Assembly (NCBI GenBank): GCA_025928545.1
Contig: JAICJH010000002.1
Span: 1-64,000 of the forward strand
DNA length: 64,000 bases
Direction: 5' to 3'
Source of the DNA: Bryobacteraceae bacterium
GTDB taxonomy: Bacteria; Acidobacteriota; Terriglobia; Bryobacterales; Bryobacteraceae
Below the pieces are notes generated by a model. That model did no database searches and was not told where the DNA came from. It saw only the letters and a list, made by a program, of their open reading frames with translations. Position 1 is the first letter of the stretch; every line of letters begins with the position of its first letter. The position numbers and the translations under genes are program-made. Below, in pieces: positions 1-34,949 of the stretch.

Positions 1-3000
1 GACGCTGGTGTCGGGCGGAACGTGCACGATCCAGGCGACGCAGTCCGGCGACGCGAATTACTCAGCGGCGACACCGGTGAATCAGAGCTTCACGGTGACT
101 CCCGCAAGCCAGACCATCACCTTTAATGCGCTATCGAACCAGGTGTTCGGAACGGCACCGTTCACGGTGAGTGCGACGTCGTCGTCCGGATTGGCTGTCA
201 GCTTCAGTTCAACAACGACTGGCGTCTGCACGGTATCTGTGGCGACCGTGACACTGGTGTCGGGCGGAACGTGCACGATCCAGGCGACACAGTCGGGCAA
301 TGCGAATTACTCAGCGGCAGCACCGGTGAATCAGAGCTTCACTGTGACTCCGGCAAGCCAGACGATCACCTTTAATGCGCTGTCGAATCAGGTGTTCGGA
401 ACAGCTCCGTTTACGGTGAGCGCGACGGCGTCTTCCGGCTTAGCGGTCAGCTTCAGTTCAACAACGACTGGCGTCTGCACGGTATCTGTGGCGACCGTGA
501 CGCTGGTGTCGGGCGGAACGTGCACGATCCAGGCGACGCAGTCCGGCGACGCGAATTACTCAGCGGCGACACCGGTGAATCAGAGCTTCACGGTGACACA
601 AGCAAGTCAGACCATAACGTTCAGTGCGCTATCGAACCAGGTGTTCGGAACGGCGCCATTCACGGTGAGCGCGACGTCGTCTTCCGGCCTGGCTGTCAGC
701 TTCAGTTCAACGACGACCGGCATCTGCACGGTGTCGGGTTCAACCGTGACGCTGGTGGCGGGCGGAACCTGCACAATTCAGGCGACGCAGTCGGGCGATG
801 CGAATTACTCAGCGGCGACACCGGTAAGCCAGAGCTTCACGGTGACACAGGCAAGCCAGACCATCACGTTTAGTGCACTTTCGAACCAGGTATTCGGAAC
901 CGCGCCGTTCACGGTGAGCGCGACGTCGTCTTCCGGCCTGACAGTCAGCTTCAGTTCAACGACGACTGGCGTCTGCACGGTATCCACGACAACCGTGACG
1001 CTGGTCGCGGCGGGAACCTGCACGATCCAGGCGACGCAGTCGGGCGATGCGAATTACTCAGCGGCAACGTCGGTGAACCAAAGCTTCACCGTGACATCGT
1101 CGAGCCAGACGATCACGTTTAATGCGCTGTCGAACCAGGTGTTCGGGGCTGCGCCGTTCACGGTGAGCGCGACAGCATCGTCCGGGCTGGCAGTGAGCTT
1201 CAGTTCAACAACCACTGGTGTTTGCACCGTAACCAGCTCCACCGTGACGTTGGTGGCGGCGGGAACGTGCACGATCCAGGCAACGCAGTCCGGTGATGCG
1301 AATTATTCAGCGGCAACACCGGTGAATCAGAGCTTCGCGGTGACACCGGCGAGCCAGACGATCTCGTTCAGCGCTCTTTCGAATCAGGTATTCGGAGCCG
1401 CACCGTTCACGGTGAACGCATCGGCATCTTCCGGTTTGCCCGTCGCCTTCGCGTCAGTGGCGCTCGTCGACGTCCAGTTTGGTTGTACGGCCGCAACGTC
1501 CTGCTTCTCAAACAACGGCGGCATTTCATCGGTCCAGCAATCCGGTGCGGGTGTGATTGGGAGCGCGACCGACGTTTGGAATATGGTCACAGGTACGGGC
1601 GGACTGGGAACCACCGGTTCGAATGCACCCCTGGTGAATGTCGCCGGAAATGTATCTCCCGTCACGGTCAGTTGGAATTCAGACACGTTTTATTCGGACG
1701 GTTCCCAGCCGGGCGCATTTGCGGGAACGCAGTTCGCGAACCTGATGGGCGGGTATCTGCTCAACGCCAGCCCAACGCCAAAGAACATTACCCTCTCCGG
1801 TCTGACACCCAACGCACCCTATGGACTGATTCTGATAACGCAGGGCGATCCCGCCGCTGGAGGCCACAGCGCACAGTTTGTGGTCAACGGCTCAGCCCCC
1901 GTTACAACGGCTCCCGCAGCCAATATCAATACTTTCGTAAATGGCCAGAATTTTGAGTTGCTGAATGTTACGGCCGACAGTTCGGGCGTCATCGACATAG
2001 CCTATTCGGCGGCAGCGGGCGAAGCGGATATCAATGGCTTCCAGCTATTCTCTGCCGGTCCGGCCTGTACGGTAAGCGGGTCGACGGTCACTCTGGTTGC
2101 ATCGGGAAGCTGCACAATTCTGGCAACACAATCAGGCGATGCGAATTACTCAGCGGCAACACCGGTAAGCCAGAGCTTCATAGTGACTCCTGCGAGTCAG
2201 ACGATCACGTTTAATCCGCTGCCGAACCAGGTGTTCGGAAGTGCGCCGTTCACCGTGGTCGCGACGGCGTCCTCGGGCCTGGCGGTCAGTTTCAGCGCAA
2301 CCGGCGCCTGCACAGTGTCCGGATCGACCGTGACGCTGGCGACGGCGGGAAGCTGCACGATCCAGGCGACACAGTCGGGCGATGCGAACTACTCAGCGGC
2401 AACACCCGTAAATCAGAGCTTCACTGTAACTCCGGCAAGCCAGACGATCACCTTCAATGCGCTGTCGAATCAAGTGTTCGGAACAGCGCCGTTCACAGTG
2501 AGTGCCACGTCGTCTTCCGGCTTAGCTGTCAGCTTCAGTTCAACAACGACGGGCATCTGCACGGTATCCGTGACGACTGTGACGCTGGTGGCGGGAGGAA
2601 CGTGCACGATCCAGGCGACGCAGTCGGGCGACGCGAATTACTCAGCGGCAGCACCCGTGAATCAGAGCTTTACCGTGACTCCCGCAAGCCAGACCATCAC
2701 GTTCAGTGCACTCTCGAACCAGGTGTTCGGAAACCCGCCGTTTGCGGTGAGCGCCACGTCGTCTTCCGGCCTGGCTGTCAGCTTCAGTTCCACAACGACA
2801 GGCGTCTGCACGGTATCCGTGGCGACCGTGACGCTGGTGGCAGCGGGAACCTGCACGATCCAGGCGACACAGTCCGGCAATGCAAATTATTCAGCGGCGA
2901 CACCGGTGAATCAGAGCTTCACTGTGACACCGGCAAGCCAAACCATCACGTTTAATGCGCTGTCGAATCAGGTGTTCGGGACTACGCCGTTTACGGTCAG

Positions 3001-6000
3001 CGCCACGGCATCTTCCGGGTTGGCAGTCAGCTTCAGTTCCACAACGACCGGCGTCTGCACGGTATCCGTGGCTACTGTGACACTGGTGGCGGGCGGAACG
3101 TGCACGATCCAGGCGACGCAGTCCGGGGATGCGAATTACTCAGCGGCAACACCGGTGAATCAGAGCTTCACGGTCACCCCCGCAAGCCAGACGATCACCT
3201 TCAATGCACTCTCGGCCCAGGTCTTCGGAACCGCGCCGTTCACGGTCAGCGCGACCGCATCATCAGGCCTGGCTGTCAGCTTCAGTTCAACAACCAGTAC
3301 GATCTGCACAGTATCGGGATCGACCGTGACGCTGGTCGGAGCAGGAACCTGCACCATTCAGGCGACGCAGTCCGGCAACGGGAATTACTCCGCGGCGGCT
3401 CCGGTGAACCAGTCGTTCGCCGTGAACAAGACGACAACGATCACCGCGCTCACCTCATCACTGGCTTCATCCAGTTTCGGAACATCCATCACGTTGACAG
3501 TCACCGTATCGCCAGCCACCGCATCCGGTACAGTGACGATTAATGACGGCACGTCTCCCATCGGTTCGGGTACCCTCAACGGCGGTACGCTGACACTGAA
3601 CATTGCCACGCTCTCCGTTGCCACCCATTCGCTGACAGCCGTTTATGCGGGCGACGCCAATAACGCCGGGAGTTCATCTGCTCCCCTGACCCAAACAGTT
3701 ATTAAGGCTTCCACCACCACATCCCTGACTTCGTCGACCAACCCTTCAACTGTCGGCGTTAGCGTCACGTTCAACGCCACCGTATCGCCTTCCAGCGCGA
3801 CAGGTACCGTCACCTTCCGGGACAACGGAACAGTGATCGGTACCGCGACACTGAATGCAGGTGTTGCAGCGCTCACTACCAGCACGCTTTCAGGCGGGCC
3901 CCACTCGCTGATTGCCTCTTATGCAGGCGATAACAACGATACAGCGAGTCAGTCGCCTGTGCTGACTCAAACGGTCAATTTCCCGCAGATCATCATTACA
4001 ACTCAGACCCTGCCCTCAGGGCAAGCAGGTTCCGCTTACGGGCCGGTTACAATGCAGGCCAGCGGTGGCTCCGGAAACTTCACCTGGTCCGCCAGTGGGT
4101 TGCCCGCAGGCATTTCGATCAGCACAGCCGGAACCCTCAGCGGAATCGCATCGGCCGCATTTTCAGGCAACGTCAGCATTACTGTGTCTGACAGCGGTTC
4201 CGGATTATCCGCCACTACTTCACTGAGCCTCACCCTCGCTTCAGGGCAAATCACTATCAGCGGGCCAACCAATCTCGGCCCGGTTTCGGTTGGCGGAAAT
4301 CTCTCGGGATCATACACGGCGCAGGGCGGTACATCGCCATATGTATGGTCGCTATCCGGCGCTCCAGCGGGCTTCACTATCGACGCGACCGGAAAGGTGA
4401 GCGGGGTAACGACTTCCGCAGGCAACGGTGTGTTCACGGTCAGCGTTCACGATTCAACGCCGGGAACTCCGATCACAGGCAATCTCGGTGTCTCCTTCTC
4501 CGCCTTTGGATTAGTGTCTACCTCCCTGCCGCCCGCGTCGACGCTGTCCGACTACAGCGCGGCACTCAGCGCGGCGGGCGGATCGCCCCCGTATACTTTC
4601 TCCGCGACCGGTCTGCCTGCCGGACTCGGTTTCTCAGGCTCCACCATATCCGGCCGTCCTCAGGCTCCCGGAATTTTCGACATCGCAGTGAATGCAACCG
4701 ATTCGAGAGGGCTCTCCGTTTCGGCTACTCTGTCCCTGACGGTCACCGGCCCCGGACCGCTGCACATCACCTCCAGCTCGCTGGCTGATGGAATCGTCGG
4801 CCAGCCCTACTCGCAAACCCTGAGCGCCGCGGGAGGCTCTCCGGCCTACACCTGGACGCAAAGCGGCGGTGTACTCCCGGCTGGACTTAGTCTCAATTCC
4901 AGCGGCACAATCTTCGGCACACCAACGCAGGCAGGTGCGTATTCAATCGGCATACAGGCCAACGATACTTCCGGAGGCCAGGTTGTCGCTTCGGTTTCAA
5001 TCAACATCCAGCCGGCGCCGATTGTGATCGCCAACGGGGCGAAACTTCCCTCAGGAATTGCGGGCGCACTTTATCCCGCGCAGGTGCTCAGCGCGACCGG
5101 CGGAACAGCGCCTTACACCTTCAGCCTGAAAGGCTCTCTGCCGGACGGCCTGACTCTCGCGAACAGCCAGATCACAGGCACGCCAGGAACAGCGGGAAGT
5201 TTCAGCTTTACTCTCGCCGTAACCGATTCATCCTCACCCGCGCTTACCGGCACACTCGATATGTCGGTGACCATACGGCCGAATGTCGCGGATCTCGTTC
5301 TTTCCGCTGGTAGCGAGTCGTTCGCACTCACATCGGGAACCTCGGCCGTCCCCGCTGCGAGCTCGGTCACGGTCAGCTCCAGCGATTCGTCCCAGACTCT
5401 CACCTTCACCATCGACGCCTCGTCCGCATCATGGCTCAGCGTCAGCGGAGGAAGCTCAACACCTGCCACTGTCGCGGTGGGTCTGTCGAATGCGGCTCTC
5501 ACCCTCTCACCAACCGGGTCTCCGTATTCCGGCAGTGTCGTCGTCACGTGCACCTCAGGGCCGTGCACCGGAAAATCGCAGACGATCAACGTGTCGCTGA
5601 CAGTCACCGCGCCTCCGCCTCAGTTGAGCCTGAGTGCCTCCATCTTCTCTTTCATCGCATCGGCGGGCGATCCGCAGGTGGGGTCCGCTGCCCTCGGTAT
5701 TCAGAATTCGGGTGGCGGAAAACTGGATATCACCGCTGTCACCTCGGCCGACAGCTGGCTTACTGTGGGCGCCTTCCCGTCGTCTGTGTTGCCAGGCCCG
5801 GGCGGCGCGGTAACCATCACCGCGAACCCGGGTTCAATGAAACCGGGTTATTACACTTCCACGATCACGGTCAAGAGCTCCGCCGGAAACGCATCCATTC
5901 CGGTCGCACTCCTGATATCGAGTCAGGCCACGATGACTTTGGGACCGGGCGGAACACAATTCTCGGCGCCGCAGGGCGGCACGCCGGGTAATTCCTCCGG

Positions 6001-7669
6001 GTCGTTCCTGGTCAGTGTTTCGAGCACGGCGAGCGTTAATTATACGGCTGCCATTGTGGCCGGAGACTTTCTTCGTGGCGGGGGAGCCGGCTCTGCATCG
6101 GGTTCCGCTCCGGGTACTGTCAACTTCTCGCTGGATGACGCGGCTGTTGCAGCGCTGCCCGCCGGAGCCTACTACGGCACGATTCGGGTAACAGGGAGCG
6201 GCGTCGTCAATTCGCCGCAGGATTTCCAGGTGGTGTTAAACATACTGCCTGCATCCACGCCTGTCGTGCCGGATCCACAACCCGGTGGTCTTCTTTTCCT
6301 GAGCTCGACTCCCGGCGTTTCACAGCAGACGATACAGGTCTATGCGAGCTCCAAAACCCCGCTTCAGTTCCAGGCTTCCGTCACCATGAACAATGGCAAG
6401 GGATGGTTGGCAATCAATACCACCAATGGATCGACCAGCTCTGGTTCTCCGGCTCAGGTTCTCGTTTCGGTGGATTCCAGTAATCTGACACCCGGCGTTT
6501 ACACCGGCACGATTAACTTTGCGTCGGGTCCGGCAGTTCGCAGCGCAAACGTCACGCTGGTTGTGGCGACTCCTGTCAGCGCGACAGCGTCCGCGCTGGA
6601 ACCCTCCATCAGCGGCCTGAAGCCGCGCGATGCCCCGGTATGCGCCAATGCCAAACTGGTGCCCGCGCCCACAGGCCTGGTTAGTAATTTCGCGGCGCCC
6701 GCTTCGTGGCCTACACCCATCACGCTGAAGCTGGTGGATACCTGCGGCAGTGTGATCGGCAGAGGTCAGATCGTCGCGACGTTCTCGAATGGCGATCCGC
6801 CATTAGCTTTATCGCCCGTCAATACTGCGGCGGGCCTCTACTCCGGTACCTGGACTCCGCGCAGGAGTTCCGCGCAGACAATTATTACAGCGCAGGCCAG
6901 CGCATCCGGCTATACACCTGCCTCGGTGCAGGTGCAGGGTCAGGTTACGCCGAACGCCGCTCCGCAGCTTGTTCCGAACGGAACTTTGGATGTTTTCCAT
7001 CCGCAGGTGGGTGGAGGCCTCGGTCCGGGGAACATCGTGCAGATCTACGGGACATCTCTCTCGGGCCAGGCAGTTTCCGCGAACACGCTTCCATTGCCGA
7101 CGAAGGTAGGTGGAACGCAGGTATTGATCGGCGGTATTACCGCTCCGCTCTTCTATGTGAGCCCCACCCAGGTCAATGCGCAAATTCCGTTCGAACTGCA
7201 GGCGGGCCAGCAATATCAGGTGATCGTCAATGCCAACGGTGCACTGACCACCCCGGAACAGATTCAACTGAATGCCGGAGCGCCGGCGCTTCTGCAATTC
7301 ACTTCCGGCCTTGTTATCGCTCAACATCCCGATGGCACGTTGGTTTCCGACACGGCTCCCGCAATCCCCGGGGAATTCCTGGTGCTCTATATGACGGGTC
7401 TCGGCGCGACTGATATTCCCGTCCCCACGGGCCAGGCGTCACCTTCCGACCCACCCGCCCGCGTGCTGGATACCCCGGCAGTTACGCTGGATGCAATCGC
7501 CGTTACGCCGCTGTTTGCCGGACTCACGCCCAGTCTTGTTGGTCTGTACCAGATCAACATTCAGGTGCCGGCCGAACTTCCGGATCATACTTACAAGCTG
7601 GTTGTATCTCAAACCGGCGTGGTGAGTAACTCGACATCACTGCCGGTCAAGACTCCGGCTGCAAATTAG
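1..7669 (+). CDS. Giant Ig-like repeat surface protein with Solibacter-type C-terminal domain (5' end outside window)
   Basis: The reading frame is open to the left edge, so the N-terminus and signal peptide are missing; at least 2555 residues are visible. Order seen: one partial and eleven full ~83-residue Ig-like repeats (to about residue 1140), two further Ig-like domains of the Big_3_5 kind (each ending in a 'YAGD' strand), five putative Ig (He_PIG-like, 'GLPAGL' and 'SGT' turns) domains, two or three BACON-like domains ('SWLSVS', 'SWLTVG'), and a last ~220 residues of the TIGR03437 type ('GPGNIVQIYGTSL', 'QVNAQIPFEL', 'YQINIQVPA'). That C-terminal family is typical of Solibacter-like Acidobacteriota and is usually found on exported proteins. 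Probable role is an extracellular adhesin or matrix scaffold. No catalytic motif was seen. It faces a minus-strand gene remnant with overlapping stop codons. Confidence 0.85.
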   Translation, partial: TLVSGGTCTIQATQSGDANYSAATPVNQSFTVTPASQTITFNALSNQVFGTAPFTVSATSSSGLAVSFSSTTTGVCTVSVATVTLVSGGTCTIQATQSGNANYSAAAPVNQSFTVTPASQTITFNALSNQVFGTAPFTVSATASSGLAVSFSSTTTGVCTVSVATVTLVSGGTCTIQATQSGDANYSAATPVNQSFTVTQASQTITFSALSNQVFGTAPFTVSATSSSGLAVSFSSTTTGICTVSGSTVTLVAGGTCTIQATQSGDANYSAATPVSQSFTVTQASQTITFSALSNQVFGTAPFTVSATSSSGLTVSFSSTTTGVCTVSTTTVTLVAAGTCTIQATQSGDANYSAATSVNQSFTVTSSSQTITFNALSNQVFGAAPFTVSATASSGLAVSFSSTTTGVCTVTSSTVTLVAAGTCTIQATQSGDANYSAATPVNQSFAVTPASQTISFSALSNQVFGAAPFTVNASASSGLPVAFASVALVDVQFGCTAATSCFSNNGGISSVQQSGAGVIGSATDVWNMVTGTGGLGTTGSNAPLVNVAGNVSPVTVSWNSDTFYSDGSQPGAFAGTQFANLMGGYLLNASPTPKNITLSGLTPNAPYGLILITQGDPAAGGHSAQFVVNGSAPVTTAPAANINTFVNGQNFELLNVTADSSGVIDIAYSAAAGEADINGFQLFSAGPACTVSGSTVTLVASGSCTILATQSGDANYSAATPVSQSFIVTPASQTITFNPLPNQVFGSAPFTVVATASSGLAVSFSATGACTVSGSTVTLATAGSCTIQATQSGDANYSAATPVNQSFTVTPASQTITFNALSNQVFGTAPFTVSATSSSGLAVSFSSTTTGICTVSVTTVTLVAGGTCTIQATQSGDANYSAAAPVNQSFTVTPASQTITFSALSNQVFGNPPFAVSATSSSGLAVSFSSTTTGVCTVSVATVTLVAAGTCTIQATQSGNANYSAATPVNQSFTVTPASQTITFNALSNQVFGTTPFTVSATASSGLAVSFSSTTTGVCTVSVATVTLVAGGTCTIQATQSGDANYSAATPVNQSFTVTPASQTITFNALSAQVFGTAPFTVSATASSGLAVSFSSTTSTICTVSGSTVTLVGAGTCTIQATQSGNGNYSAAAPVNQSFAVNKTTTITALTSSLASSSFGTSITLTVTVSPATASGTVTINDGTSPIGSGTLNGGTLTLNIATLSVATHSLTAVYAGDANNAGSSSAPLTQTVIKASTTTSLTSSTNPSTVGVSVTFNATVSPSSATGTVTFRDNGTVIGTATLNAGVAALTTSTLSGGPHSLIASYAGDNNDTASQSPVLTQTVNFPQIIITTQTLPSGQAGSAYGPVTMQASGGSGNFTWSASGLPAGISISTAGTLSGIASAAFSGNVSITVSDSGSGLSATTSLSLTLASGQITISGPTNLGPVSVGGNLSGSYTAQGGTSPYVWSLSGAPAGFTIDATGKVSGVTTSAGNGVFTVSVHDSTPGTPITGNLGVSFSAFGLVSTSLPPASTLSDYSAALSAAGGSPPYTFSATGLPAGLGFSGSTISGRPQAPGIFDIAVNATDSRGLSVSATLSLTVTGPGPLHITSSSLADGIVGQPYSQTLSAAGGSPAYTWTQSGGVLPAGLSLNSSGTIFGTPTQAGAYSIGIQANDTSGGQVVASVSINIQPAPIVIANGAKLPSGIAGALYPAQVLSATGGTAPYTFSLKGSLPDGLTLANSQITGTPGTAGSFSFTLAVTDSSSPALTGTLDMSVTIRPNVADLVLSAGSESFALTSGTSAVPAASSVTVSSSDSSQTLTFTIDASSASWLSVSGGSSTPATVAVGLSNAALTLSPTGSPYSGSVVVTCTSGPCTGKSQTINVSLTVTAPPPQLSLSASIFSFIASAGDPQVGSAALGIQNSGGGKLDITAVTSADSWLTVGAFPSSVLPGPGGAVTITANPGSMKPGYYTSTITVKSSAGNASIPVALLISSQATMTLGPGGTQFSAPQGGTPGNSSGSFLVSVSSTASVNYTAAIVAGDFLRGGGAGSASGSAPGTVNFSLDDAAVAALPAGAYYGTIRVTGSGVVNSPQDFQVVLNILPASTPVVPDPQPGGLLFLSSTPGVSQQTIQVYASSKTPLQFQASVTMNNGKGWLAINTTNGSTSSGSPAQVLVSVDSSNLTPGVYTGTINFASGPAVRSANVTLVVATPVSATASALEPSISGLKPRDAPVCANAKLVPAPTGLVSNFAAPASWPTPITLKLVDTCGSVIGRGQIVATFSNGDPPLALSPVNTAAGLYSGTWTPRRSSAQTIITAQASASGYTPASVQVQGQVTPNAAPQLVPNGTLDVFHPQVGGGLGPGNIVQIYGTSLSGQAVSANTLPLPTKVGGTQVLIGGITAPLFYVSPTQVNAQIPFELQAGQQYQVIVNANGALTTPEQIQLNAGAPALLQFTSGLVIAQHPDGTLVSDTAPAIPGEFLVLYMTGLGATDIPVPTGQASPSDPPARVLDTPAVTLDAIAVTPLFAGLTPSLVGLYQINIQVPAELPDHTYKLVVSQTGVVSNSTSLPVKTPAAN
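104..3430 (+). repeat. 249-bp tandem repeats encoding 83-aa Ig-like units
   Basis: Unit starts (codon for the Ala or Ser of 'ASQTITF') fall at 104, 353, 602, 851, 1100, 1349, 2192, 2435, 2684, 2933 and 3182, and a partial unit precedes 104. Period is 249 bp, except the unit at 2192 (243 bp) and the unit at 1349, which carries a 609-bp insertion. Units are highly similar at DNA level, including long identical stretches such as the 'caggcgacgcagtc' segment. This suggests recent duplication or gene conversion. Protein hallmarks are 'SNQVFGTAPFTV', 'SGLAVSFSS' and 'CTIQATQSGDANYSAA', with two Cys per unit. Confidence 0.95.
1457..2065 (+). other. 203-aa domain inserted inside the sixth Ig-like repeat
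   Basis: The repeat starting at 1349 runs normally to 'SGLPVAFAS' and resumes at 'CTVSGSTVTLV' from 2066. Between them lie 203 residues unlike the repeats, containing 'VDVQFG', 'GAGVIGSATDVWN', 'TLSGLTPNAPYGLIL' and 'ADINGFQLF'. The pattern resembles the beta-sandwich modules (galactose-binding-like) found in secreted and PEP-CTERM proteins of Acidobacteriota and Planctomycetes. The reading frame is kept across both joints. The domain family is an inference. Confidence 0.75.
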
Positions 7670-13903: not shown

Positions 13904-14854
13904 ATGTCCAAATTAAAAGCAGCAGTTCTGTCGATGGGTGCGGTCAGCGCGTTGATGTTTTCGTTCTCAGCGGGCGCGCCTGCGCAGAATTTGACCGGGC
14001 CGGTCGACCGGAAATTTGTAAACAATCCGTGCCCCGACCCCTATTTGAGCAGCGCATTATGGAATGAAACGGCGGGCTCCGTGAACCCGGTAACCCGCGC
14101 GGGCTGGACCCCTTCGCTTTGCAATGTGAGCAACTACGGAACCTTCAGGACGTTTCCGGAACTCGAAACAAAGTTGAGTATATACCGCTTTCAACTGGCT
14201 TTGCAGGCGAACGGGATCAGTTTTGTGGGAGGGTTTCGCGGTCGCGACAACAACAACTACCTGATCTTCCGCAAAGATAAGGCGTATGTTGGTGTGAATA
14301 CCGGCCTGGTGGGCAGTGGCGGGGCTTCGCTCCTCACCGAGAATGGCGCGGGATTGGTGAACACCAACGGCAGCAACGTCGTTTCCCAGGGTGGCGGAAA
14401 TTTTGTCCCGCTGTCGACGGTTGTCTCGCAGGGTGGCGGAAACCTGATTACAAGCGATGGCGCGGGTGCGGTTTCCCAGGGCGCCGGAAATGTGGTCGCG
14501 CAGGGTAGCGGCAATGGTCGACAGGTCCTGGACATCGGACAGACCCTCTTTCAGTTCTTGAATCGTTGGGCGATAGTCTCCGGCCCTCAGCCGCTGGCCA
14601 ATCCGTCCGCTCCCTCGACGTCGCGGCCCGCTCCCGCAGCCGTAAAGCCCAATCCCTCGAATTCCGAAACGGCGCAATGGAGACAGCGCGGGCCCTGCAC
14701 CGATCCGTGGGTTTCGAAAGCTGTGACCGAAGTCAAAGGCCAGGTAAACGGCTCCGGAAATTCCGGAGAATGCCAGGTGGCGCGATACAACGGGGGCTCG
14801 TGGCGAACCTATGATGAGCTTTACCGCGGCGTCGCCCGGGCATTCGGCAGGTAA
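13904..14854 (+). CDS. Exported protein with duplicated terminal modules and a Gly/Asn/Ser/Gln repeat core
   Basis: 316 residues. It is preceded by 'gggagaaagc' (ribosome site AGGGAGA) and a signal peptide ending near 'GAPAQ'. An N-terminal block 'NPCPDPYLSSAL...CNVSNYGTFRTFPEL' is echoed at the C-terminus by 'GPCTDPWVSKAV...CQVARYNGGSWRTYDEL', two Cys in each. Between them is a low-complexity stretch with repeated 'VVSQGGGN' and 'AGxVSQGAGN' units (about 140-205). No known family is recognised. It lies third in a row of exported proteins downstream of the kinase, and a hairpin terminator follows its stop. Confidence 0.75.
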   Translation: MSKLKAAVLSMGAVSALMFSFSAGAPAQNLTGPVDRKFVNNPCPDPYLSSALWNETAGSVNPVTRAGWTPSLCNVSNYGTFRTFPELETKLSIYRFQLALQANGISFVGGFRGRDNNNYLIFRKDKAYVGVNTGLVGSGGASLLTENGAGLVNTNGSNVVSQGGGNFVPLSTVVSQGGGNLITSDGAGAVSQGAGNVVAQGSGNGRQVLDIGQTLFQFLNRWAIVSGPQPLANPSAPSTSRPAPAAVKPNPSNSETAQWRQRGPCTDPWVSKAVTEVKGQVNGSGNSGECQVARYNGGSWRTYDELYRGVARAFGR

Positions 14855-27222: not shown

Positions 27223-28092
27223 TCAGGCGAGTCCGGCCACCCGCAGTTCGGCAAAAACGTCCTTTGTGGCCGTACTCCGGTTCAACGTGTAGAAATGAAT
27301 TCCCGGGGCTCCGCCGCGCAGAAGGTCGATGCATTGCGCTGTGGCATGCGCTATTCCAAGTTGCATCAATGCCTGCGGATCTTCTTTGCGTCTTTCGAGC
27401 TCAGCCGAAAGGCGCCCGGGCAACGAAGCCCCGAATCGTACGCCCTGGGCCGCATTGCTGAGCGGCATGATCCCGGGAATAATCGGCACCTCGATTCCCG
27501 CCGCCCGCGCCCGCTCGCAAAAGCTCCAGTAGCACCTGTTGTCGAAAAACAGTTGGGTAATCAGGAAGTCCACGCCGGCGTCGACCTTCCGCTTCAGGTT
27601 CTCCAGATCCAGGTTTGGATCCAGACATTCCACGTGCTTTTCCGGGTATGCGGCGCCCCCCACTGAAACGGAGACTCCATGCTCTTGCCGGATAAATGCC
27701 ACAAGTTCATTAGCATAAGCAAATCCGCCAGGCACGGGGGCAAAATTGGTTGCCCCCTTCGGAGGATCTCCACGCAGGGCCAGAATATTCGTCACGCCTG
27801 CAGCCGTCAGACGGTTCACGACGGTGCCAATCTCATCCCGGGTCGCACCAACGCACGTGAGGTGAGCCATCGCCTCAATCCCTGCGTGGCTGCGGATACG
27901 GGAGACGACCTCCAGCGTCTTCTCACGTGTAGACCCGCCGGCGCCGTACGTGACAGATACGAAGGCAGGCTCCAGCGCACTTAATTCCCCAATCGTCCGT
28001 TCCAGTTGGGCGGCGGCCTCGTCTGATTTCGGGGGAAAGAATTCGAAAGAGATCGATGTCTTACCGGTCGCCAGCCGCTCCCGGATCAGCAT
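27223..28092 (-). CDS. metF: 5,10-methylenetetrahydrofolate reductase
   Basis: 289 residues, the normal length for bacterial MetF. Signatures seen: 'SFEFFPPKSDEAAAQLERTI', 'FVSVTYGAGGSTREKTLEVV', 'AHLTCVGATRDEI', 'NILALRGDPPKG', 'VGGAAYPEKHVEC', 'DFLITQLFFDN', 'IIPGIMPLSN' and 'GIHFYTLNRS'. The enzyme is a flavin-dependent TIM barrel that reduces methylene-THF to methyl-THF for methionine synthesis. It lies between tRNA-Arg upstream and secG downstream. Confidence 0.97.
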   Translation of the reverse strand: MLIRERLATGKTSISFEFFPPKSDEAAAQLERTIGELSALEPAFVSVTYGAGGSTREKTLEVVSRIRSHAGIEAMAHLTCVGATRDEIGTVVNRLTAAGVTNILALRGDPPKGATNFAPVPGGFAYANELVAFIRQEHGVSVSVGGAAYPEKHVECLDPNLDLENLKRKVDAGVDFLITQLFFDNRCYWSFCERARAAGIEVPIIPGIMPLSNAAQGVRFGASLPGRLSAELERRKEDPQALMQLGIAHATAQCIDLLRGGAPGIHFYTLNRSTATKDVFAELRVAGLA

Positions 28093-28147
28093 AACTTCAA
28101 CTCAGGTTGTGGCGTCATGTCAGCGATTGAGCGAATGAGAAGGATAT

Positions 28148-28223
28148 GGTGCGCCCGGCGAGATTCGAACTCACGACCTTTTGCTTCGGAGGCAAACGCT
28201 CTATCCAGCTGAGCTACGGGCGC
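28148..28223 (-). tRNA. tRNA-Arg (anticodon CCG)
   Basis: Minus-strand cloverleaf: acceptor GCGCCCG pairing with CGGGCGC, D-arm 'agctcagctggatagagc', anticodon stem TTTGC/GCAAA around loop CTCCGAA (CCG), T-arm 'gagttcgaatctc', CCA encoded at 28148-28150. 76 nt in total. Confidence 0.96.
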
Positions 28224-28293
28224 AACGTTTAACCATTCTATCTTAGCGGTGGGGAGCGATAGCGAGGCCTCGCCCGGCTTGACGCTATTCCAT

Positions 28294-28641
28294 CTACGCT
28301 CGAATCATGGTCAGCAACATCTTGAACCGCCCGTGCGCCTTCAATGCGTGCGGCTGGTTGGCCGGCATCAGCACCGTTTCGCCGGTCTTTGTCTCTATCG
28401 CTGTGCCCGATATCGTAATCACCGCGTCCCCTTCCAGGATCTGAACCATCGCATCGAAAGGCGTTGTATGCTCGCTCAGCCCCTGGCCGTCATCGAAGGC
28501 GAACAACGTGATTGTTCCCATGCCGCGCTTCATCAGTGTTCGGCTGACTACCGCGCCTTCCTGGTAATTGACCAGTTCCCCCAGGCGCAGGGCCTGCGCC
28601 TGGGGCATTTCGCTCTTATTTGGAATCGCTTCGGAACTCAT
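28294..28641 (-). CDS. Small cupin-domain protein
   Basis: 115 residues, preceded by CAGGAGA. It is a single cupin barrel: 'LFAFDDGQGLSEHTTPFDAMVQILEGDAVITI' (motif 1, with His and Glu-like positions), 'GETVLMPANQPHAL' (motif 2), and 'FKMLLTMIRA'. The metal site looks reduced to one or two His. The start lies 21 bp after the NO reductase stop, so the genes are probably co-transcribed. Similar small cupins sit next to nitric oxide or anaerobic respiration genes in other bacteria. A sensing or small-molecule-binding role is inference. Confidence 0.85.
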   Translation of the reverse strand: MSSEAIPNKSEMPQAQALRLGELVNYQEGAVVSRTLMKRGMGTITLFAFDDGQGLSEHTTPFDAMVQILEGDAVITISGTAIETKTGETVLMPANQPHALKAHGRFKMLLTMIRA

Positions 28642-28662: not shown

Positions 28663-30927
28663 CTAATCTCCCGCAACCCGAGCGCCGAATTCCGGCACCG
28701 GTACTTCCGCGCTGGCCCGAACTTTCTTTGGCGACCGCGTGGTCAGTACGAAGGCAACCAGGATCAAAGCGCCTAATGCGAACAGGGTATCGCCTGGCGC
28801 ACGCATCCATCGCAGCTGCTGCATCAGGGGCGACCCGAGGAATTCCGTACTCCGTGCATACCAGTAGCCATGTTCCACCGAAGCCCATGTCTGCATCAGG
28901 CCGACGGGAAGCAGGCTGCCGACACACATGGCGAACAGACCGCCATTCATACCCCAGAACGCGAGCCGGAGCCAGTTTTCCTTCCATTCGGCCTGCGGAT
29001 CCATTGCCCTGAGACATACAAGCATCAGGCCAATGCCCAGCATTCCGTACACGCCAAACAGTGCGGCATGTCCATGCAGCGGGGTCGTATTCAGGCCCTG
29101 CATGAAGTACAACGCGATAGGCGGGTTGATCATGAATCCAAACAACCCGGCGCCCACCATGTTCCAGAAGGCCACCGCGACAAAAAAGTTAATCGGCCAC
29201 CGATACCGCTGAGCCCAGGCTGCCAGCCGGCCGCGGCGCAGATCGTCCAGCGCCGAATACGCCACCATCGTCAGCGGCACCACTTCCAGAGCGCTGAAGA
29301 CCGAACCCCATGCCAGCGCCACTGTCGGGGTACCCGAAAAGTACAGGTGATGGCATGTTCCGATGATTCCGCCAGCCAGAAAAATGGTTGCGGATAAGAG
29401 AGCTGCTTTCGCTGCGAGTGCCGGCCGGATGAGGCCGAGCCGCGTAAAGAAGAAGGCGATCACCGTGGTCGCAAAGACCTCAAAGAAGCCTTCCACCCAA
29501 AGGTGGATCACCCACCAGCGCCAGTATTCCACGATCGAGAGATGGGTATGCTGTCCCCAGGTCAGCCCCGCGCCATAGAACAGCCCGATGGCGCCTGCGG
29601 ACAGTACGAACAGCCAAAGAAGAGGCTTTTGTTCCCCGGGCTGTTTGAGCGCCGGGCGGATGGATCGAACCACGAGAAACAGCCAAAGCAACAAGCCGAC
29701 GAACAGCAGAACCTGCCAGACTCTGCCGAGATCGACATATTCATAGCCCTGGTGTCCCCATAAGAAAGCACTGGCATCCGATAGCCGGTTGTGGATGCTG
29801 AGCCATTCGCCCGCCATCGATCCGGCCACCACAAAAAGCAGCGCGCCGAACAGGACATGCACGCCGAGGCTCTGAAACTTTGGCTCAATGCCGCTTACCA
29901 GCGGGCCGATAAAGAGTCCGGCTGCCAGCCAGGCGGTGGCGATCCAGAAGATGCCTACCTGAACGTGCCACGTTCTGCTCACGCTGTAAGGCAGTATGTT
30001 AGAGATATCGATCCCGTAAAAACCATTGCCCTCGACGCCATAATGTGCCGTGATGATGCCCATCCCTATCTGGACTACAATCAGGGCCGAAACGACCCAG
30101 AAGTACTTGAGGGTCGCGCGCTGCGACGGAGTGGCTATCCATCGGCCCAGGGGATCGGAATGGGGCAGGGATTTAGGCACTTCCTCAGCCTCTTGCGATG
30201 CATACCACCACACCATCGCACATACACCTGCCAGCAGCATGATGATGCTGACACCGGTCCACATGACACTGTCGCCGGTGGGGCGGTTGCCAATGAGCGG
30301 TTCGTAGGGCCAGTTATTGGTATAGGAAATGTGGTCGCCGACGCGATTCGCCGCCGCCGACCAGGATGTCCAGAAGATGAAGCCGGCAAACTGGCGCATC
30401 CGTTCCGGGCTGCTGACCGTTCCGGGCCGGATCGCATACGCGGGATTTCCGCCGATGAAGACATCGGAAAAATGCCGCAGGGTTGCTTCGAACGCGCGGG
30501 CTCGCACCGGCTCAATCGTGATCGTGTTCGTGGCTGAGTTGTAAGTATTCCGGCGATACATTTGCTCCAGACGGCCCTGGAGGCCCGCCTTTTCCTCGGC
30601 GCTCAACTGGTCGTACGGCTTCCCCTTTTCGGCCGCGGACCAGTCGTTCAGCACGAAGGTCGCTTCGCGATGCAACCAGTCGGCCGTCCAGTCCGGGGCG
30701 ACGTAGCTTCCGTGTCCCCAGATGGAACCCACTTCCATGCCGCCCAATGCCTGCCAGACGTTCTGGCCTCTGCCGATATCGCCCTCGGCCATCAATACTG
30801 TCCCGTCAGTACTCACGACGCGCGCGGGAATCGGCGGCATCTCCTGATAGATTCTCGTGCCAATCCAGCCTAAGACGGCGAATGAGAGCACAAATACAAC
30901 TGCGAAGCTGATCCATAGTTTTTTCAT
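28663..30927 (-). CDS. norB: Quinol-dependent nitric oxide reductase (qNorB)
   Basis: 754 residues, the length of single-subunit qNor. The N-terminal extension has the cytochrome-c-like periplasmic fold found in qNor ('GDIGRGQNVWQALGGMEVGS', 'HGSYVAPDWTADWLHREA'). It is followed by about 14 transmembrane helices of the heme-copper oxidase fold. Heme and iron ligand segments seen: 'QHTHLSIVEYWRWWVIHLWVEG', 'CHHLYFSGTP' and 'LHGHAALFGVYGMLGIGLM'. It reduces 2 NO to N2O using quinol electrons in the inner membrane. With no other denitrification reductase in the window, NO detoxification is the likely role. The palindrome GTGAC-N4-GTCAC lies about 71 bp upstream of the ATG. Confidence 0.95.
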   Translation of the reverse strand: MKKLWISFAVVFVLSFAVLGWIGTRIYQEMPPIPARVVSTDGTVLMAEGDIGRGQNVWQALGGMEVGSIWGHGSYVAPDWTADWLHREATFVLNDWSAAEKGKPYDQLSAEEKAGLQGRLEQMYRRNTYNSATNTITIEPVRARAFEATLRHFSDVFIGGNPAYAIRPGTVSSPERMRQFAGFIFWTSWSAAANRVGDHISYTNNWPYEPLIGNRPTGDSVMWTGVSIIMLLAGVCAMVWWYASQEAEEVPKSLPHSDPLGRWIATPSQRATLKYFWVVSALIVVQIGMGIITAHYGVEGNGFYGIDISNILPYSVSRTWHVQVGIFWIATAWLAAGLFIGPLVSGIEPKFQSLGVHVLFGALLFVVAGSMAGEWLSIHNRLSDASAFLWGHQGYEYVDLGRVWQVLLFVGLLLWLFLVVRSIRPALKQPGEQKPLLWLFVLSAGAIGLFYGAGLTWGQHTHLSIVEYWRWWVIHLWVEGFFEVFATTVIAFFFTRLGLIRPALAAKAALLSATIFLAGGIIGTCHHLYFSGTPTVALAWGSVFSALEVVPLTMVAYSALDDLRRGRLAAWAQRYRWPINFFVAVAFWNMVGAGLFGFMINPPIALYFMQGLNTTPLHGHAALFGVYGMLGIGLMLVCLRAMDPQAEWKENWLRLAFWGMNGGLFAMCVGSLLPVGLMQTWASVEHGYWYARSTEFLGSPLMQQLRWMRAPGDTLFALGALILVAFVLTTRSPKKVRASAEVPVPEFGARVAGD

Positions 30928-30991
30928 TGACTTGTTTTCTCCAACGGCTTACTGCAAAATCCAAGATTACGGGCGATTCCGCGGGTTCGCA

Positions 30992-31005
30992 GTGACTTTG
31001 GTCAC
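30992..31005. promoter_or_regulatory. NO-regulon palindrome, site A (upstream of NO reductase)
   Basis: GTGAC-TTTG-GTCAC is a 5-4-5 inverted repeat. Its centre is about 71 bp upstream of the qNor start. It has the half-site length and 4-bp spacer of Crp/Fnr-family operators and is shared with two more sites in this cluster. Confidence 0.7.
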
Positions 31006-31016
31006 CCGCGGCCGGC

Positions 31017-32348
31017 CTATGCGAAAACTCTTCGCGCGGGATGTGGACTCTCGGCGGTCAAGTGCGCAGGCGGGCGGCAAAAAGTCACGAGCAGGTTTGC
31101 GGCGAACAAACTGACAGCCGTCAGTTCAGTGACAGCGGAAACCGGCAGAATCCGCCAGAACAACTGCGCATACGCAAAGCCCTCGTATGCCGGAATTTCG
31201 GAAATCACGCGTAGCGCGCACCCGGCGTTGAGCAGAACCAGCGATGCGAGCATGCCGCGTTTGCTGAAGAGCACGCGCGCGCCGCAGAACGCGGGCAGGA
31301 TTCGTTGGCCGATTGCGAATACCATAACGCCCAGAAAGCCCACTGTCACTGAATGGCGCGACGCGCCCCAGATTCCTCCTGCCTGATCCGCAGCCGCGGC
31401 CCACACGGTCAGTACGCCGGCTACGGCCAGCCAGACATAAGCGACGCGGACGAACACCGGGAAAGAAGTGTGAACCCCTGCCGTCTTAGGCGGGTTCACG
31501 GTGCGGTGAAAAACGCGCAAAGCGAAAGCAGCGAGCGCGGCCGAAGCCAGAAGTAGCGCTGCCGAAATCAGGGCCTGTCCCATCAACGCGATGACGACAC
31601 CGGCCCACGCGAGCCCGGTGGCCTTCAGGAGCAGCTTGCCATCCGGTGCCTGCAGTCCTGCAAAGACCGGCAACCAGCGGGCGTTAAAGCCCCAAACCGT
31701 CGGGACAAGGAAGGCCCAGACCGGAACGGCAAGCATCCGCTGATCCAGCGTGCGTGTGATCGCGGGGGATATGCCGAGCCAGGCCGCCTGCCCGGTTGCG
31801 AACAGGTTCAGCAGCAGGGCGAAAAGGAAGCCGCAGGAGCCGGCAACCACAACCAGCATCCAGGGCTCCCTTGGCTTACGCGGAGCCGAGGGGTCGGGCT
31901 TGTGTCCTGAAACAGTGGCAAAGAAAGTCAGGAACGCCGCGAGTTCCATGGCGGCAGAAAGGGGGAGCGATACGCGCCAGTTCCAGCCCGTGACATTTGC
32001 GGCCCAGCGCAGCGTGACGCCGGCGGTCCAGAGAAGGTAGGAACTCCACGCCCGGCGCACCGCGAATTGCGGCAGGCGGCCCATTTTCGAAAGAGAATAA
32101 AAGCCGATGCCGATGACAAAGGTTCCGATCCAGCCGTAAATCTGGGCATGCCCGTGAGCCTGGAGCCATGCGGGAGAAAGAGAATCCAGCTGATGCCTGC
32201 CGCTGATGGAGACCAGATTCCATACTCCGAGAAAGGTCCCCGGGAGCAGCATGAATACGATACCGGTGATGATGTACGCCATGACCGCGCGCTGCAATTG
32301 CACTTCGCGCTGAACATTGCTGAGAGTTTTTTCGTTGCTCTTGTCCAT
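31017..32348 (-). CDS. NnrS-like polytopic membrane protein
   Basis: 443 residues and about 12 hydrophobic helices. Notable segments: 'WLQAHGHAQIYGWIGTFVIGIGFYSLSKM' near the N-terminus (two His in a helix), 'RWLPVFAGLQAP', and 'ASRHSVTVGFLGVMVFAIGQRILPAF'. The RH-x-x-TVG-type helix and the His-rich first helices resemble NnrS-like heme/copper membrane proteins linked to NO stress. The match is less certain than for its neighbours. It lies between a RIC/NapH-like unit and qNor, and carries its own palindrome about 55 bp upstream. Function within NO resistance is inferred from family and context. Confidence 0.65.
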   Translation of the reverse strand: MDKSNEKTLSNVQREVQLQRAVMAYIITGIVFMLLPGTFLGVWNLVSISGRHQLDSLSPAWLQAHGHAQIYGWIGTFVIGIGFYSLSKMGRLPQFAVRRAWSSYLLWTAGVTLRWAANVTGWNWRVSLPLSAAMELAAFLTFFATVSGHKPDPSAPRKPREPWMLVVVAGSCGFLFALLLNLFATGQAAWLGISPAITRTLDQRMLAVPVWAFLVPTVWGFNARWLPVFAGLQAPDGKLLLKATGLAWAGVVIALMGQALISAALLLASAALAAFALRVFHRTVNPPKTAGVHTSFPVFVRVAYVWLAVAGVLTVWAAAADQAGGIWGASRHSVTVGFLGVMVFAIGQRILPAFCGARVLFSKRGMLASLVLLNAGCALRVISEIPAYEGFAYAQLFWRILPVSAVTELTAVSLFAANLLVTFCRPPAHLTAESPHPARRVFA

Positions 32349-32396
32349 TTCAATCTGCCTCTGATTCGAGCGTACGGTTTCAGCGGGAAAGAGGCA

Positions 32397-32410
32397 GTGA
32401 CTGAAGTCAC
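32397..32410. promoter_or_regulatory. NO-regulon palindrome, site B (upstream of NnrS-like gene)
   Basis: GTGAC-TGAA-GTCAC, extended by one base on each side to AGTGACTGAAGTCACT. Its centre is about 55 bp upstream of the ATG at 32348. It is the most symmetric of the three sites. Confidence 0.72.
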
Positions 32411-32425
32411 TGAGCGCGGATTTTT

Positions 32426-33499
32426 TCAGGGATGGGAGAGCTCGTCGGCGTGCGGAACGAGTTCAAAATAGACTTGCTCGGGCAACGGTGTATTCCAGTG
32501 ACCACTCCAGCGCGCTCCGATGTAGGTGCCGACGAACAACGCGGCAACGCCCGCCGCTATTGCCCACGGCGGTACACGCCGGCGGCGCTGGGCTGACAGA
32601 AACAACGCTCCATCGGCCGGACAGGCCGCCACGCACTGCATGCAACCCAGGCACTCCGCCGATTGAATTGTGATCAATCGATCCACGGGCAATGCCGACG
32701 GACACGCTTTAGCGCACCTCGCGCAATCGACGCAAAGGTCCTCATCGCGGCGAATTCGCAAAGGGCTCGCCAGCGATATCAGCCCCATCAGTGCGCCATA
32801 GGGGCAAAAATAGCGGCACCAGAAATTCTGTACAAACAGCGATCCCAGCCCCAGAACCACCATCGCGGTCGCGCCTGCAATACCCAACTCCCGGAAGAGA
32901 TTGAGCATTTTGACATCGTCCACCAGACCATAAGGGCTTTCCAGAAACTGGCGAATTCCTTCCACGGACATGTCTGCGACCACATAAACGAACAGCGCCA
33001 TCAGAATGTACTTGACACCGCGCAGGGGGATGTCGAGCCACCGTGCCAGGCGGAAGTTGCGTCCGAAAAGCCGTCGTCCCAGCCGCCAGAGATACTCCGA
33101 GACGGTTCCCACGGGGCACAGCCATCCACAAAAGCTCTTTCGAAAAATCAGAGACGCCCCGAGAAATGCGATAAGCAGCAGGGTTCCGGCGGGGTGGATT
33201 GCGGGCAAATGGCCAGTCAGCAAAACGACCTTCAGGTTCATCAGCGACGCAATCGGCAACCAGCCTTCCACGCCGGCCGGCCGGCTGGCACGCACGGTTT
33301 GTCCGCTGCTTTCGTAGAAGCGGACAAACAGATAGAACTGAATTCCGATCCAGATATTCAGCAGAAGGAAGGTGAACTGAATGGTTCGCCGTAATTTCTG
33401 CGAGTAATCCGCCCCTGCCCGCCGCAACAGCTTCTTTGACGGCCTGGACGCGGGGAGTGTGCCATCAACTCGTGTGTCGTTGCGTGAGAGCGATATCAT
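32426..33499 (-). CDS. NapH/NosR-like polyferredoxin membrane protein
   Basis: 357 residues. About five transmembrane helices carry two cytoplasmic-face motifs 'CGWLCPVG' and 'CRYFCPYG', typical of NapH/CcoG/NosR-type electron-transfer proteins. They are followed by two 4Fe-4S clusters: 'CVDCARCAKACP' and 'CLGCMQCVAACP'. A last helix ('WAIAAGVAALFVGTYIG') and a short tail follow. It would pass electrons from quinol or ferredoxin to a partner oxidoreductase. It starts 15 bp after the RIC gene stop, so the two are co-transcribed under site C. Here it may supply electrons for iron-sulfur repair or NO removal (inference). Confidence 0.85.
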   Translation of the reverse strand: MISLSRNDTRVDGTLPASRPSKKLLRRAGADYSQKLRRTIQFTFLLLNIWIGIQFYLFVRFYESSGQTVRASRPAGVEGWLPIASLMNLKVVLLTGHLPAIHPAGTLLLIAFLGASLIFRKSFCGWLCPVGTVSEYLWRLGRRLFGRNFRLARWLDIPLRGVKYILMALFVYVVADMSVEGIRQFLESPYGLVDDVKMLNLFRELGIAGATAMVVLGLGSLFVQNFWCRYFCPYGALMGLISLASPLRIRRDEDLCVDCARCAKACPSALPVDRLITIQSAECLGCMQCVAACPADGALFLSAQRRRRVPPWAIAAGVAALFVGTYIGARWSGHWNTPLPEQVYFELVPHADELSHP

Positions 33500-33514
33500 C
33501 GCCCAACTCCTTCC

Positions 33515-34237
33515 TTAGCCGGCTTGCTCCATCTCCACGGCACGCGGAAACAGGGCATTATTCTCCAGGTGAATGTGCTGATGGAGGTCGTGTTCGAACT
33601 CCTCCAGCGCGAGATATAACCCGAGGTACGTGGGGCACGCTCCAACCGGCGCCTTGTACCCGCTCGAAAGTTCGCGAATGCGCGCCAGCAGTGCGCCCGC
33701 GTCGTCGTGTTCCGCCACCATGTTCGCGATCGGCCGCTGTACTGTACCAAAGAACGCCGGAGGCACGGGATTGCCGGCCTGAACCGCCTGTTCCATTTTC
33801 GCGATATAAGGAAACAGCACCTGCTCTTCCTTGAGCATGTGGGTGGAGAGTTCCTGGCTGACGGCTGAGAAGAGTTGTTCAATCTGCCCAATCTCCGGCC
33901 GGTCAGCTCCATGCCTCGCGAGAACTCTGGCGAGTAACGCATCAATTCGCGGCGTCTCCTGGCGGACATAGGCGTGATGTTTTCCGACGATCTGTCCAAT
34001 TAATTCGCTCAGCGGCTTGCCAGTCCACTCGGCGGCCTCCGGCCCGACGGGCTCCTGTCCGGCTTGCACCAGAAGTTCGAGGACGCGGGTAAGATCCACG
34101 CTGGCGCGGGAACAGGCGTCACTCAGAGGCCTTTTTCCGCCGCAGCAATAGTCTATTCCCAGCGATTCAAAAATTCTGATGCTGGCCGGATTCTCCAACG
34201 CGATTTCCCGAACGGTTTTTTCAAGTGTGGTTGCCAT
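33515..34237 (-). CDS. Iron-sulfur cluster repair di-iron protein (RIC; ScdA/YtfE family)
   Basis: 240 residues from the ATG at 34237 (AGGAAAG upstream); the longer frame to 34372 lacks family similarity and runs over the operator. N-terminal ScdA_N-like domain has 'SIRIFESLGIDYCCGG'. The hemerythrin-like part carries His/Glu ligands in 'GKHHAYVRQETPRI', 'STHMLKEEQVLFPYI', 'MVAEHDDAG' and 'HDLHQHIHLENNALFP'. The family repairs Fe-S clusters after nitrosative or oxidative damage. It is first gene of a two-gene unit with the NapH-like gene, with a palindrome about 55 bp upstream. Confidence 0.94.
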   Translation of the reverse strand: MATTLEKTVREIALENPASIRIFESLGIDYCCGGKRPLSDACSRASVDLTRVLELLVQAGQEPVGPEAAEWTGKPLSELIGQIVGKHHAYVRQETPRIDALLARVLARHGADRPEIGQIEQLFSAVSQELSTHMLKEEQVLFPYIAKMEQAVQAGNPVPPAFFGTVQRPIANMVAEHDDAGALLARIRELSSGYKAPVGACPTYLGLYLALEEFEHDLHQHIHLENNALFPRAVEMEQAG

Positions 34238-34285
34238 CTTTCCTGCTCCCTGTTTCGAGAATAGGGCGGCAACCGATCCTGCGCA

Positions 34286-34299
34286 GTGACTAAAGTCAC
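34286..34299. promoter_or_regulatory. NO-regulon palindrome, site C (upstream of RIC gene)
   Basis: GTGAC-TAAA-GTCAC; centre about 55 bp upstream of the RIC ATG at 34237 and just downstream of the zinc-ribbon gene stop. It has the same half-sites and spacer length as sites A and B. Confidence 0.72.
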
Positions 34300-34310: not shown

Positions 34311-34949
34311 CTAGGTGCGTGGTTCGGCTGTGGGATTGGCGGGCGGTGCAAATCTGGCGCCCAGCGCGCCACCGGCGGCGCAGATACCCACCACCAGGGC
34401 GAACACCATTAACATCACCATCAGAAGCACGGCCCCGAGCATGGTTGGATTGTTGACGACTTCCGACATCCGCGGATCCTGTTTCACCATCTGATCGAGC
34501 ATTTCACGTCCGGTAGAAGAAGCCATCGTGATCGAAAAGACTACCGCCATGCTGACGAAGGCAAAAAGCCCTGTCAGAAACCCCAGGCGCGCGCCGGACG
34601 CCACATCGAGACGCAGGCCCGTGAGCCGGCGATAGAGACGTACGCCGCCCCATCCGGCCAGCAGCCACCACACAAAGAAGAGGTAGTTCACGACCGGCAG
34701 CATCTCCGCCATCATGATCCCCAGCGACATCATGAAAGCTACGCGCAGGGCAATCGGGTTAGCGAAACTGATCGGCAGCGGAACGGGCGTAATGATTACC
34801 GCCGGGGCGGGTGGAGGAGGAGGCGGCGGAGCGAACTCCTCCTGCTCGGCGGCCGTCAGTTCGTGGACAGGCCGTCCGCAGCGGTGGCAAAAACGCGCGT
34901 TTTCGACAACGACGGTACCGCACGTACATCTTTCGGGCGTATCGGGCAT
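34311..34949 (-). CDS. Zinc-ribbon membrane protein of unknown function
   Basis: 212 residues. The N-terminal double-Cys zinc ribbon 'CTCGTVVVENARFCHRCGRP' is followed by a Pro run and about four hydrophobic helices ('FMMSLGIMMAEMLPVVNYLFFVWWLL', 'GFLTGLFAFVSMAVVF', 'LLMVMLMVFALVVGICAAGG'). This architecture is common among uncharacterised acidobacterial proteins. No enzymatic motif is visible. It is co-directional with the NO genes, but it ends before operator C and is probably a separate unit. Confidence 0.75.
   Translation of the reverse strand: MPDTPERCTCGTVVVENARFCHRCGRPVHELTAAEQEEFAPPPPPPPAPAVIITPVPLPISFANPIALRVAFMMSLGIMMAEMLPVVNYLFFVWWLLAGWGGVRLYRRLTGLRLDVASGARLGFLTGLFAFVSMAVVFSITMASSTGREMLDQMVKQDPRMSEVVNNPTMLGAVLLMVMLMVFALVVGICAAGGALGARFAPPANPTAEPRT

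Follow-up and report, generated by a model that had tools for sequence, protein, structure and literature searches.

Three palindromes in a nitric oxide gene cluster

Which regulator, if any, stands behind a cluster of nitric oxide (NO) genes whose upstream regions share one palindrome? The question arises in the first 64,000 nucleotides of contig JAICJH010000002.1 from a Bryobacteraceae bacterium (Acidobacteriota; assembly GCA_025928545.1), hereafter the window. Its minus strand encodes a quinol-dependent nitric oxide reductase (qNor), an NnrS-like membrane protein and a di-iron iron-sulfur repair protein of the RIC/ScdA-YtfE type (RIC), each preceded by GTGAC-N4-GTCAC. We propose, at a probability of about 85%, that a Crp/Fnr-family activator, whose gene lies on contig C85 and not in the window, uses these palindromes as its operators; the figure covers operator and activator, the signal being shared between NO and a low-oxygen, redox or nitrate cue. 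With strong comparative support, we predict a conserved Crp/Fnr regulon for NO defence in Acidobacteriota.

Exact matches lie at 30992–31005 (GTGACTTTGGTCAC), 32397–32410 (GTGACTGAAGTCAC) and 34286–34299 (GTGACTAAAGTCAC), as the original prediction had placed them, and a pattern scan of the 64,000-nt window found no fourth. All three occupy the 5′ regions of minus-strand genes, their centres 71.5 bp from the start codon of qNor (30927) and 55.5 bp from those of the NnrS-like gene (32348) and RIC (34237), in agreement with the distances of about 71, 55 and 55 bp first proposed. The RIC distance follows from taking the ATG at 34237 as its start; the longest open frame begins at a GTG at 34372. 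From the density of the genome, 0.006 exact sites would be expected per 3.3 kb, where three are seen. Allowing one mismatch gives nine matches in the window against 1.89 expected, a number reached in 0 of 100 shuffles.

The site is conserved upstream of orthologous genes

Our first genome set held 151 genomes, the bacterium's own and those of 150 relatives ranging from the same genus to the same class, with qNor in 53 and RIC in 64. Site counts refer to the 30 loci returned per search, own genome included and two RIC loci without upstream DNA dropped, and accept up to one mismatch (for qNor, within 300 bp upstream). A site precedes qNor at 26/30 loci (13 exact) and RIC at 26/28 (15 exact). No site turned up within coding stretches of these qNor and RIC genes, and Markov-simulated upstream regions averaged 0.25 (qNor) and 0.14 (RIC). 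Identity is 67% or more at 28 of the qNor loci, and all 26 site-bearing ones belong to these; at two of the loci (L036 and L056) the site is some 200 bp away. No site was found at qNor loci L035, L044, L061 and L062 or at RIC loci L111 and L114. For NnrS, where 30 of 46 rows had loci, 10/30 carry a site and 12/30 lie within 300 bp of RIC (one in both), leaving nine with neither. The scan of related genomes proposed with the original prediction thus bears it out for most of the qNor and RIC orthologues examined.

A second collection started from a profile of 21 orthologues of the candidate regulator (described below), which drew 413 relatives in named genomes. The best 80 of these were examined; by title they belong to acidobacterial groups, and 10/80 are on contigs equal in length to contigs of the first set. 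RIC lies within the locus for 70/80, and each of these 70 RIC genes has, no more than 200 bp away, a site with one mismatch or none (29 exact), against 0/70 in the coding control. A strand-matched match to a weight matrix, built from 25 qNor and 25 RIC sites of relatives with the own genome excluded, lies no more than 160 bp from RIC in 69/70. Of these 70 loci, 61 are on contigs that match none of the first set in length. Among mechanically called open reading frames (ORFs), a matrix match near the start is found for RIC in 46/48, ferredoxin in 6/8, qNor in 5/10, NnrS in 6/36, the regulator in 10/72 and other ORFs in 28/298.

The same matrix sorts the 12 exact motif places of the 6.7-Mb draft genome (the pattern reversed occurs at five) into five scoring 22.3–25.9 and seven scoring 10.0–16.5. 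The high scorers are the three window operators, at qNor (25.3; N4 reads TTTG on the plus strand), the NnrS-like gene (25.9) and the RIC transcript (25.4), together with a site before a cytochrome c–narG–narH–narJ operon (contig C99) and one before a DUF3079 gene that is followed by a hemerythrin-domain gene (contig C85), with a NasC-like reductase and a NarK-like transporter nearby. Within the window, 14723–14736 (GTGACCGAAGTCAA) scores 19.2 inside an ORF and is probably a chance match.

That the palindromes as a whole are accidents would agree with seven of the 12 exact matches scoring low, four of them, whose surroundings were read, lying inside ORFs (one, L001, near an ORF start, where the true start could be further in; the other three, L002, L006 and L012, were assessed by matrix score alone). 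Conservation upstream of orthologues, together with the coding and Markov controls, makes this explanation virtually negligible. Counts of the bare 14-mer against its reverse are 569 versus 263 in the 76 genomes with a regulator match and 424 versus 315 in the 75 without (Mann–Whitney p 8.5e-5 between the two groups, a weak test on its own).

A −10-like box at class II spacing

Read in gene direction, 52 aligned sites no more than 130 bp from the start give the consensus GTGAC-YNNA-GTCA(C/T)-TGC, followed at one fixed distance by a second conserved element, a TAnnnT box (A in 35/52, last T in 36/52). For sites of the first set within 130 bp of the start, TAnnnT occurs at the fixed offset in 21/49 and one base further in 10/49, with no more than three at any other offset. 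The 61 RIC loci on contigs new to the analysis repeat the pattern: 39 at the offset, seven one base off and at most two elsewhere.

A class II Crp-type activator binds a site centred at −41.5, and such spacing is expected of it. By spacing, the arrangement fits a promoter of this class in which the operator would replace the −35 box. A full TAnnnT is present in all three window promoters, the predicted −10 boxes on the minus strand being TAATCT at 30964–30969 for qNor (+1 near 30957, taking the site centre as −41.5) and TACGCT at 32369–32374 for the NnrS-like gene (+1 near 32362) and TATTCT at 34258–34263 for RIC (+1 near 34251). Proteins of the Crp/Fnr family can also act as repressors, a role proposed for HcpR at sat and apsAB (PMC545781, in the part available), and the palindromes might then be repressor operators. 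We consider this highly unlikely, given that the −10-like box follows the site at activator spacing and does not overlap it.

A candidate Crp/Fnr regulator

Eight cNMP-binding (cyclic-nucleotide-binding) domains exceed their cut-off in this genome, and only two proteins have a Crp-type helix-turn-helix. Both proteins over the HTH_Crp_2 cut-off sit on other contigs (C85 and C120), in keeping with the earlier statement that the window holds no regulator gene. Our candidate is the C85 protein (232 residues, 27550–28245), which its cNMP-binding fold and Crp-type helix-turn-helix place in the Crp/Fnr superfamily (PF00027, 79 bits; PF13545, 61.7 bits; PF00325, 21.8 bits; each over cut-off).

Relatives of this protein occur in 86/151 genomes at E ≤1e-15. 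For the 83 strongest matches (E up to 3.4e-34), the regulator lies no more than 3 kb from RIC or qNor in 28/83 overall and in 20/27 at 53% identity or above; these 20 are all in the same direction as, and 57–226 bp from, the nearer gene. One relative (L179) has the order regulator, RIC, ferredoxin, NnrS, qNor, which is the window cluster with the regulator attached. Across the 151 genomes, regulator and RIC are found together in 59, the regulator alone in 17, RIC alone in five and neither in 70 (Fisher p 2.6e-20); the corresponding numbers for qNor are 42, 34, 11 and 64 (Fisher p 1.8e-7), both tests ignoring phylogeny. Put differently, 59/64 RIC-bearing genomes have the regulator. Together with the conservation of the site, a Crp/Fnr protein that co-occurs with these genes and is often linked to them supports the original idea of a specific NO or redox regulator with a defined motif in this lineage.

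Recognition helix and rival regulators

Alignment of the 80 orthologues places R194, E195 and R199 at the positions of CRP R180, E181 and R185 in 80/80. A more distant group of 20 members (40–49% identity) has the helix GTVREVVSRN in 16, two variants that keep R-E-R and two incompletely printed sequences. In the available text of Rodionov and colleagues (PMC1274295), R180 correlates with G3 of the site and E181 with A6, and GTGAC-N4-GTCAC fits this rule for an R-E helix. The window half-site is CRP's GTGA plus C; an R-E-R recognition helix suits a GTGA half-site rather than the TTGAT of FNR and DNR.

Could another protein of this genome bind the palindrome? The C120 protein also passes the HTH_Crp_2 cut-off, the genome encodes two Rrf2 proteins (the family of NsrR), and some site-bearing genomes have no close C85 orthologue. 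The C120 protein was set aside because its helix, SREIVTHY, has no second arginine; the Rrf2 proteins were dropped because the palindrome bears no relation to the NsrR motif, gATGyAT-N5-ATrCATc (PMC1274295, as excerpted). Linkage to RIC and qNor is shown for the C85 family, that of the C120 family not having been examined. We rate either substitute as very unlikely.

Several results weigh against the C85 assignment and the regulon drawn from it. In its own genome the regulator lies apart from the genes that it would control, and among matches of 40–52% identity only 8/55 lie near RIC or qNor; the Fisher tests share the weakness noted above. The regulator gene itself seldom carries a site (4/30; 10/72 in the second collection), and general autoregulation was rejected on these counts. 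Four drafts (G033, G068, G078 and G086), that is 4/26 genomes with a qNor site (at most one mismatch; distant in G078, at −197), have no close regulator orthologue. The same holds for draft G056, which has a RIC site, and in G074 an exact narG site occurs without any regulator match. Sites of this sort must be explained by draft gaps or by another Crp protein. In the orthologue check, the ORFs picked at L270, L271 and L272 were not Crp-like, and those rows are uninformative.

On the target side, the site of the narG-linked cytochrome c gene is kept in only 3/20 orthologues (20 of 25 rows used). Hemerythrin ORFs have a site near the start in 0/12 in the second collection and were rejected as a general target. 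Neither narG (TATTCC) nor DUF3079 (CACAAT) has a full TAnnnT as its −10-like box.

Proposed signal and candidate sensor residues

Under the proposed activator, events would run as follows. On encountering NO, the dimeric activator would bind GTGAC-N4-GTCAC centred at −41.5, substituting for the −35 box, and recruit RNA polymerase to the TAnnnT −10 box by class II activation. In the window this would switch on three transcripts, one carrying RIC and a ferredoxin-type protein, one the NnrS-like gene and one qNor together with a cupin gene. The narGHJ operon and the DUF3079–hemerythrin pair elsewhere in the genome are probably under the same activator. NO as the signal is suggested by the identity of the target genes.

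C50 and C119 are invariant in 80/80 orthologues; the distant group has an EGxxC pattern in 19/20 and CxxxP in 20/20. No histidine or methionine is conserved at 97% or more among the 80. In CRP an Arg-Ser pair holds the phosphate of cyclic AMP (cAMP); the aligned positions here are Y95-P96 (Y in 77/80, F in 3/80, P in 80/80), so cAMP is an unlikely ligand. FNR uses four cysteines for its 4Fe-4S cluster, a set absent from the 80 orthologues, where only C50 and C119 are invariant. We tentatively suggest, as a possibility held at well below even odds, an NO activator widespread in Acidobacteriota in which C50 and C119 of the Crp fold sense NO or redox state in place of the haem ligands or Fe-S cysteines used by the family's known NO and oxygen sensors, with iron-sulfur repair by RIC as the core target.

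The same activator might instead sense low oxygen, redox state or nitrate/nitrite and govern a general anaerobic or nitrate regulon. Inclusion of narGHJ in the set of this genome and the NarK-like transporters nearby speak for such a signal. An NO-binding cofactor of the regulator is hypothetical, and two invariant cysteines could sense redox. Against it, the regulator's commonest companion is RIC (70/80 loci), and qNor, NnrS and hcp, all NO-damage genes, also bear sites; the narG site is rare (3/20), and the FNR-type cysteine set for oxygen sensing is absent. We judge this alternative rather unlikely.

Reach of the regulon

Because the motif also precedes the narGHJ operon, the predicted regulon is wider than NO detoxification in this genome, taking in respiratory nitrate reductase. 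Of the 28 site-bearing ORFs classed as other in the second collection, 14 were domain-scanned. They include two hcp genes (L236 and L241; hcp was not searched genome-wide), two nirK-like genes (one over the NCBI cut-off), two DUF1858-NnrS genes, a NarK-like transporter, a ScdA_N protein, a YwiC protein and three radical-SAM proteins related to haem b/d1 synthesis; two seem unrelated (an RND adaptor and a methyltransferase).

Radical-SAM genes with a site upstream stand near the regulator at L201, L206, L209, L223, L228, L230 and L242. The one at L206 is TIGR04053 over cut-off, those at L201 and L209 resemble AhbD/NirJ, and the rest were recognized by eye. They may form a haem-synthesis arm of the regulon. 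As further observations, the NarK-like transporters at L032 (12030–14336) and L239 (2088–4313) have an extended C-terminal part, which at L032 resembles electron-transfer membrane proteins (QmoC, DsrM). On contig C99 the palindrome before the narG operon is flanked on its other side by a divergent gene (L007, 1604–2623) that by eye resembles a potassium channel with a TrkA-N-like part.

Soils are rich in acidobacteria. A study of 24 genomes reports nor genes (norBC, norZ) also for strains of subdivisions 1 and 3 that lack dissimilatory reductases for nitrate or nitrite (PMC5900883, in the part available). Among the papers listed by our searches, judged by title and the start of the abstract and with subscription journals mostly outside coverage, none dealt with an NO regulator of acidobacteria or with how they switch NO defence on. 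Now that the operator is defined and a regulator gene named, control of an enzyme that produces nitrous oxide (N2O) in these bacteria becomes directly testable, and regulon prediction across Acidobacteriota possible.

Comparison with known systems

What we propose is a regulon of a familiar type, set apart by its operator, its targets and its putative sensor residues. HcpR, an NO-responsive Crp/Fnr protein of Desulfovibrio, other delta-proteobacteria, Clostridia and Porphyromonas, comes close in family and in nitrogen-oxide targets including hcp (PMC1274295, excerpt). Published HcpR sites are TGTGA-N6-TCACA, TTGAC-N4-GTCAA and GTAAC-N4-GTTAC (same source) and ATTTGACC-N2-GGTCAAAT (PMC545781, in part); the second of these has the spacer of the window sites, and the first, CRP-like, goes with R180 in Desulfovibrio (PMC1274295). 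The original prediction that the half-site is nearer to HcpR than to Fnr/Dnr is reasonable for the motif, yet GTGAC differs from each published HcpR site, and the commonest target here is RIC. Met68 matters in Porphyromonas HcpR (PMC12750200, as far as available), whereas no methionine reaches 97% conservation here, in an alignment that does not include HcpR itself. The resemblance to HcpR is thus one of motif.

DNR and NnrR likewise belong to the Crp/Fnr family and activate nor, nir and nnrS genes (PMC1274295, excerpt), and DNR (3dkw) is among the PDB matches of the C85 protein. Their half-sites are TTGAT (TTGAT-N4-ATCAA) or TTGcg, in contrast to GTGAC with an arginine at the CRP-180 position. 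The three window sites match neither; sites of relatives were picked with the GTGAC pattern, TTGAT not being sought separately. The best PDB sequence matches (3d0s and 4byy among them) are to what we take to be CRP/GlxR proteins (E. coli, M. tuberculosis and Corynebacterium), with the same recognition residues and hence GTGA; they differ in that CRP's cAMP-phosphate Arg-Ser aligns to Tyr-Pro in the C85 family. NsrR and NorR exert NO- or nitrite-responsive control over ytfE/dnrN, hmp, nor and hcp genes elsewhere (PMC1274295, excerpt), from unrelated protein families with unrelated motifs; the window sites do not match the NsrR motif.

Window transcripts and other features

Domain matches identify the genes of the three NO-related transcription units. 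The qNor gene (28663–30927, minus strand) carries PF22085 and PF00115; the NnrS-like gene (31017–32348, minus) has PF05940 over cut-off; RIC (33515–34237, minus) scores 226 bits against TIGR03652 (cut-off 204.7). Fifteen base pairs after RIC, and probably cotranscribed with it, comes a NapH/NosR-like membrane ferredoxin (32426–33499, minus; Fer4_5 over cut-off, TIGR02163 below). A cupin-domain gene, identified by domain search (28294–28641, minus), begins 21 bp after qNor and, from its position, is probably on the same transcript; it may be a member of the NO regulon. At the left end of the window, 8–7669 is a 2553-residue open frame that by eye consists mostly of near-identical repeats.

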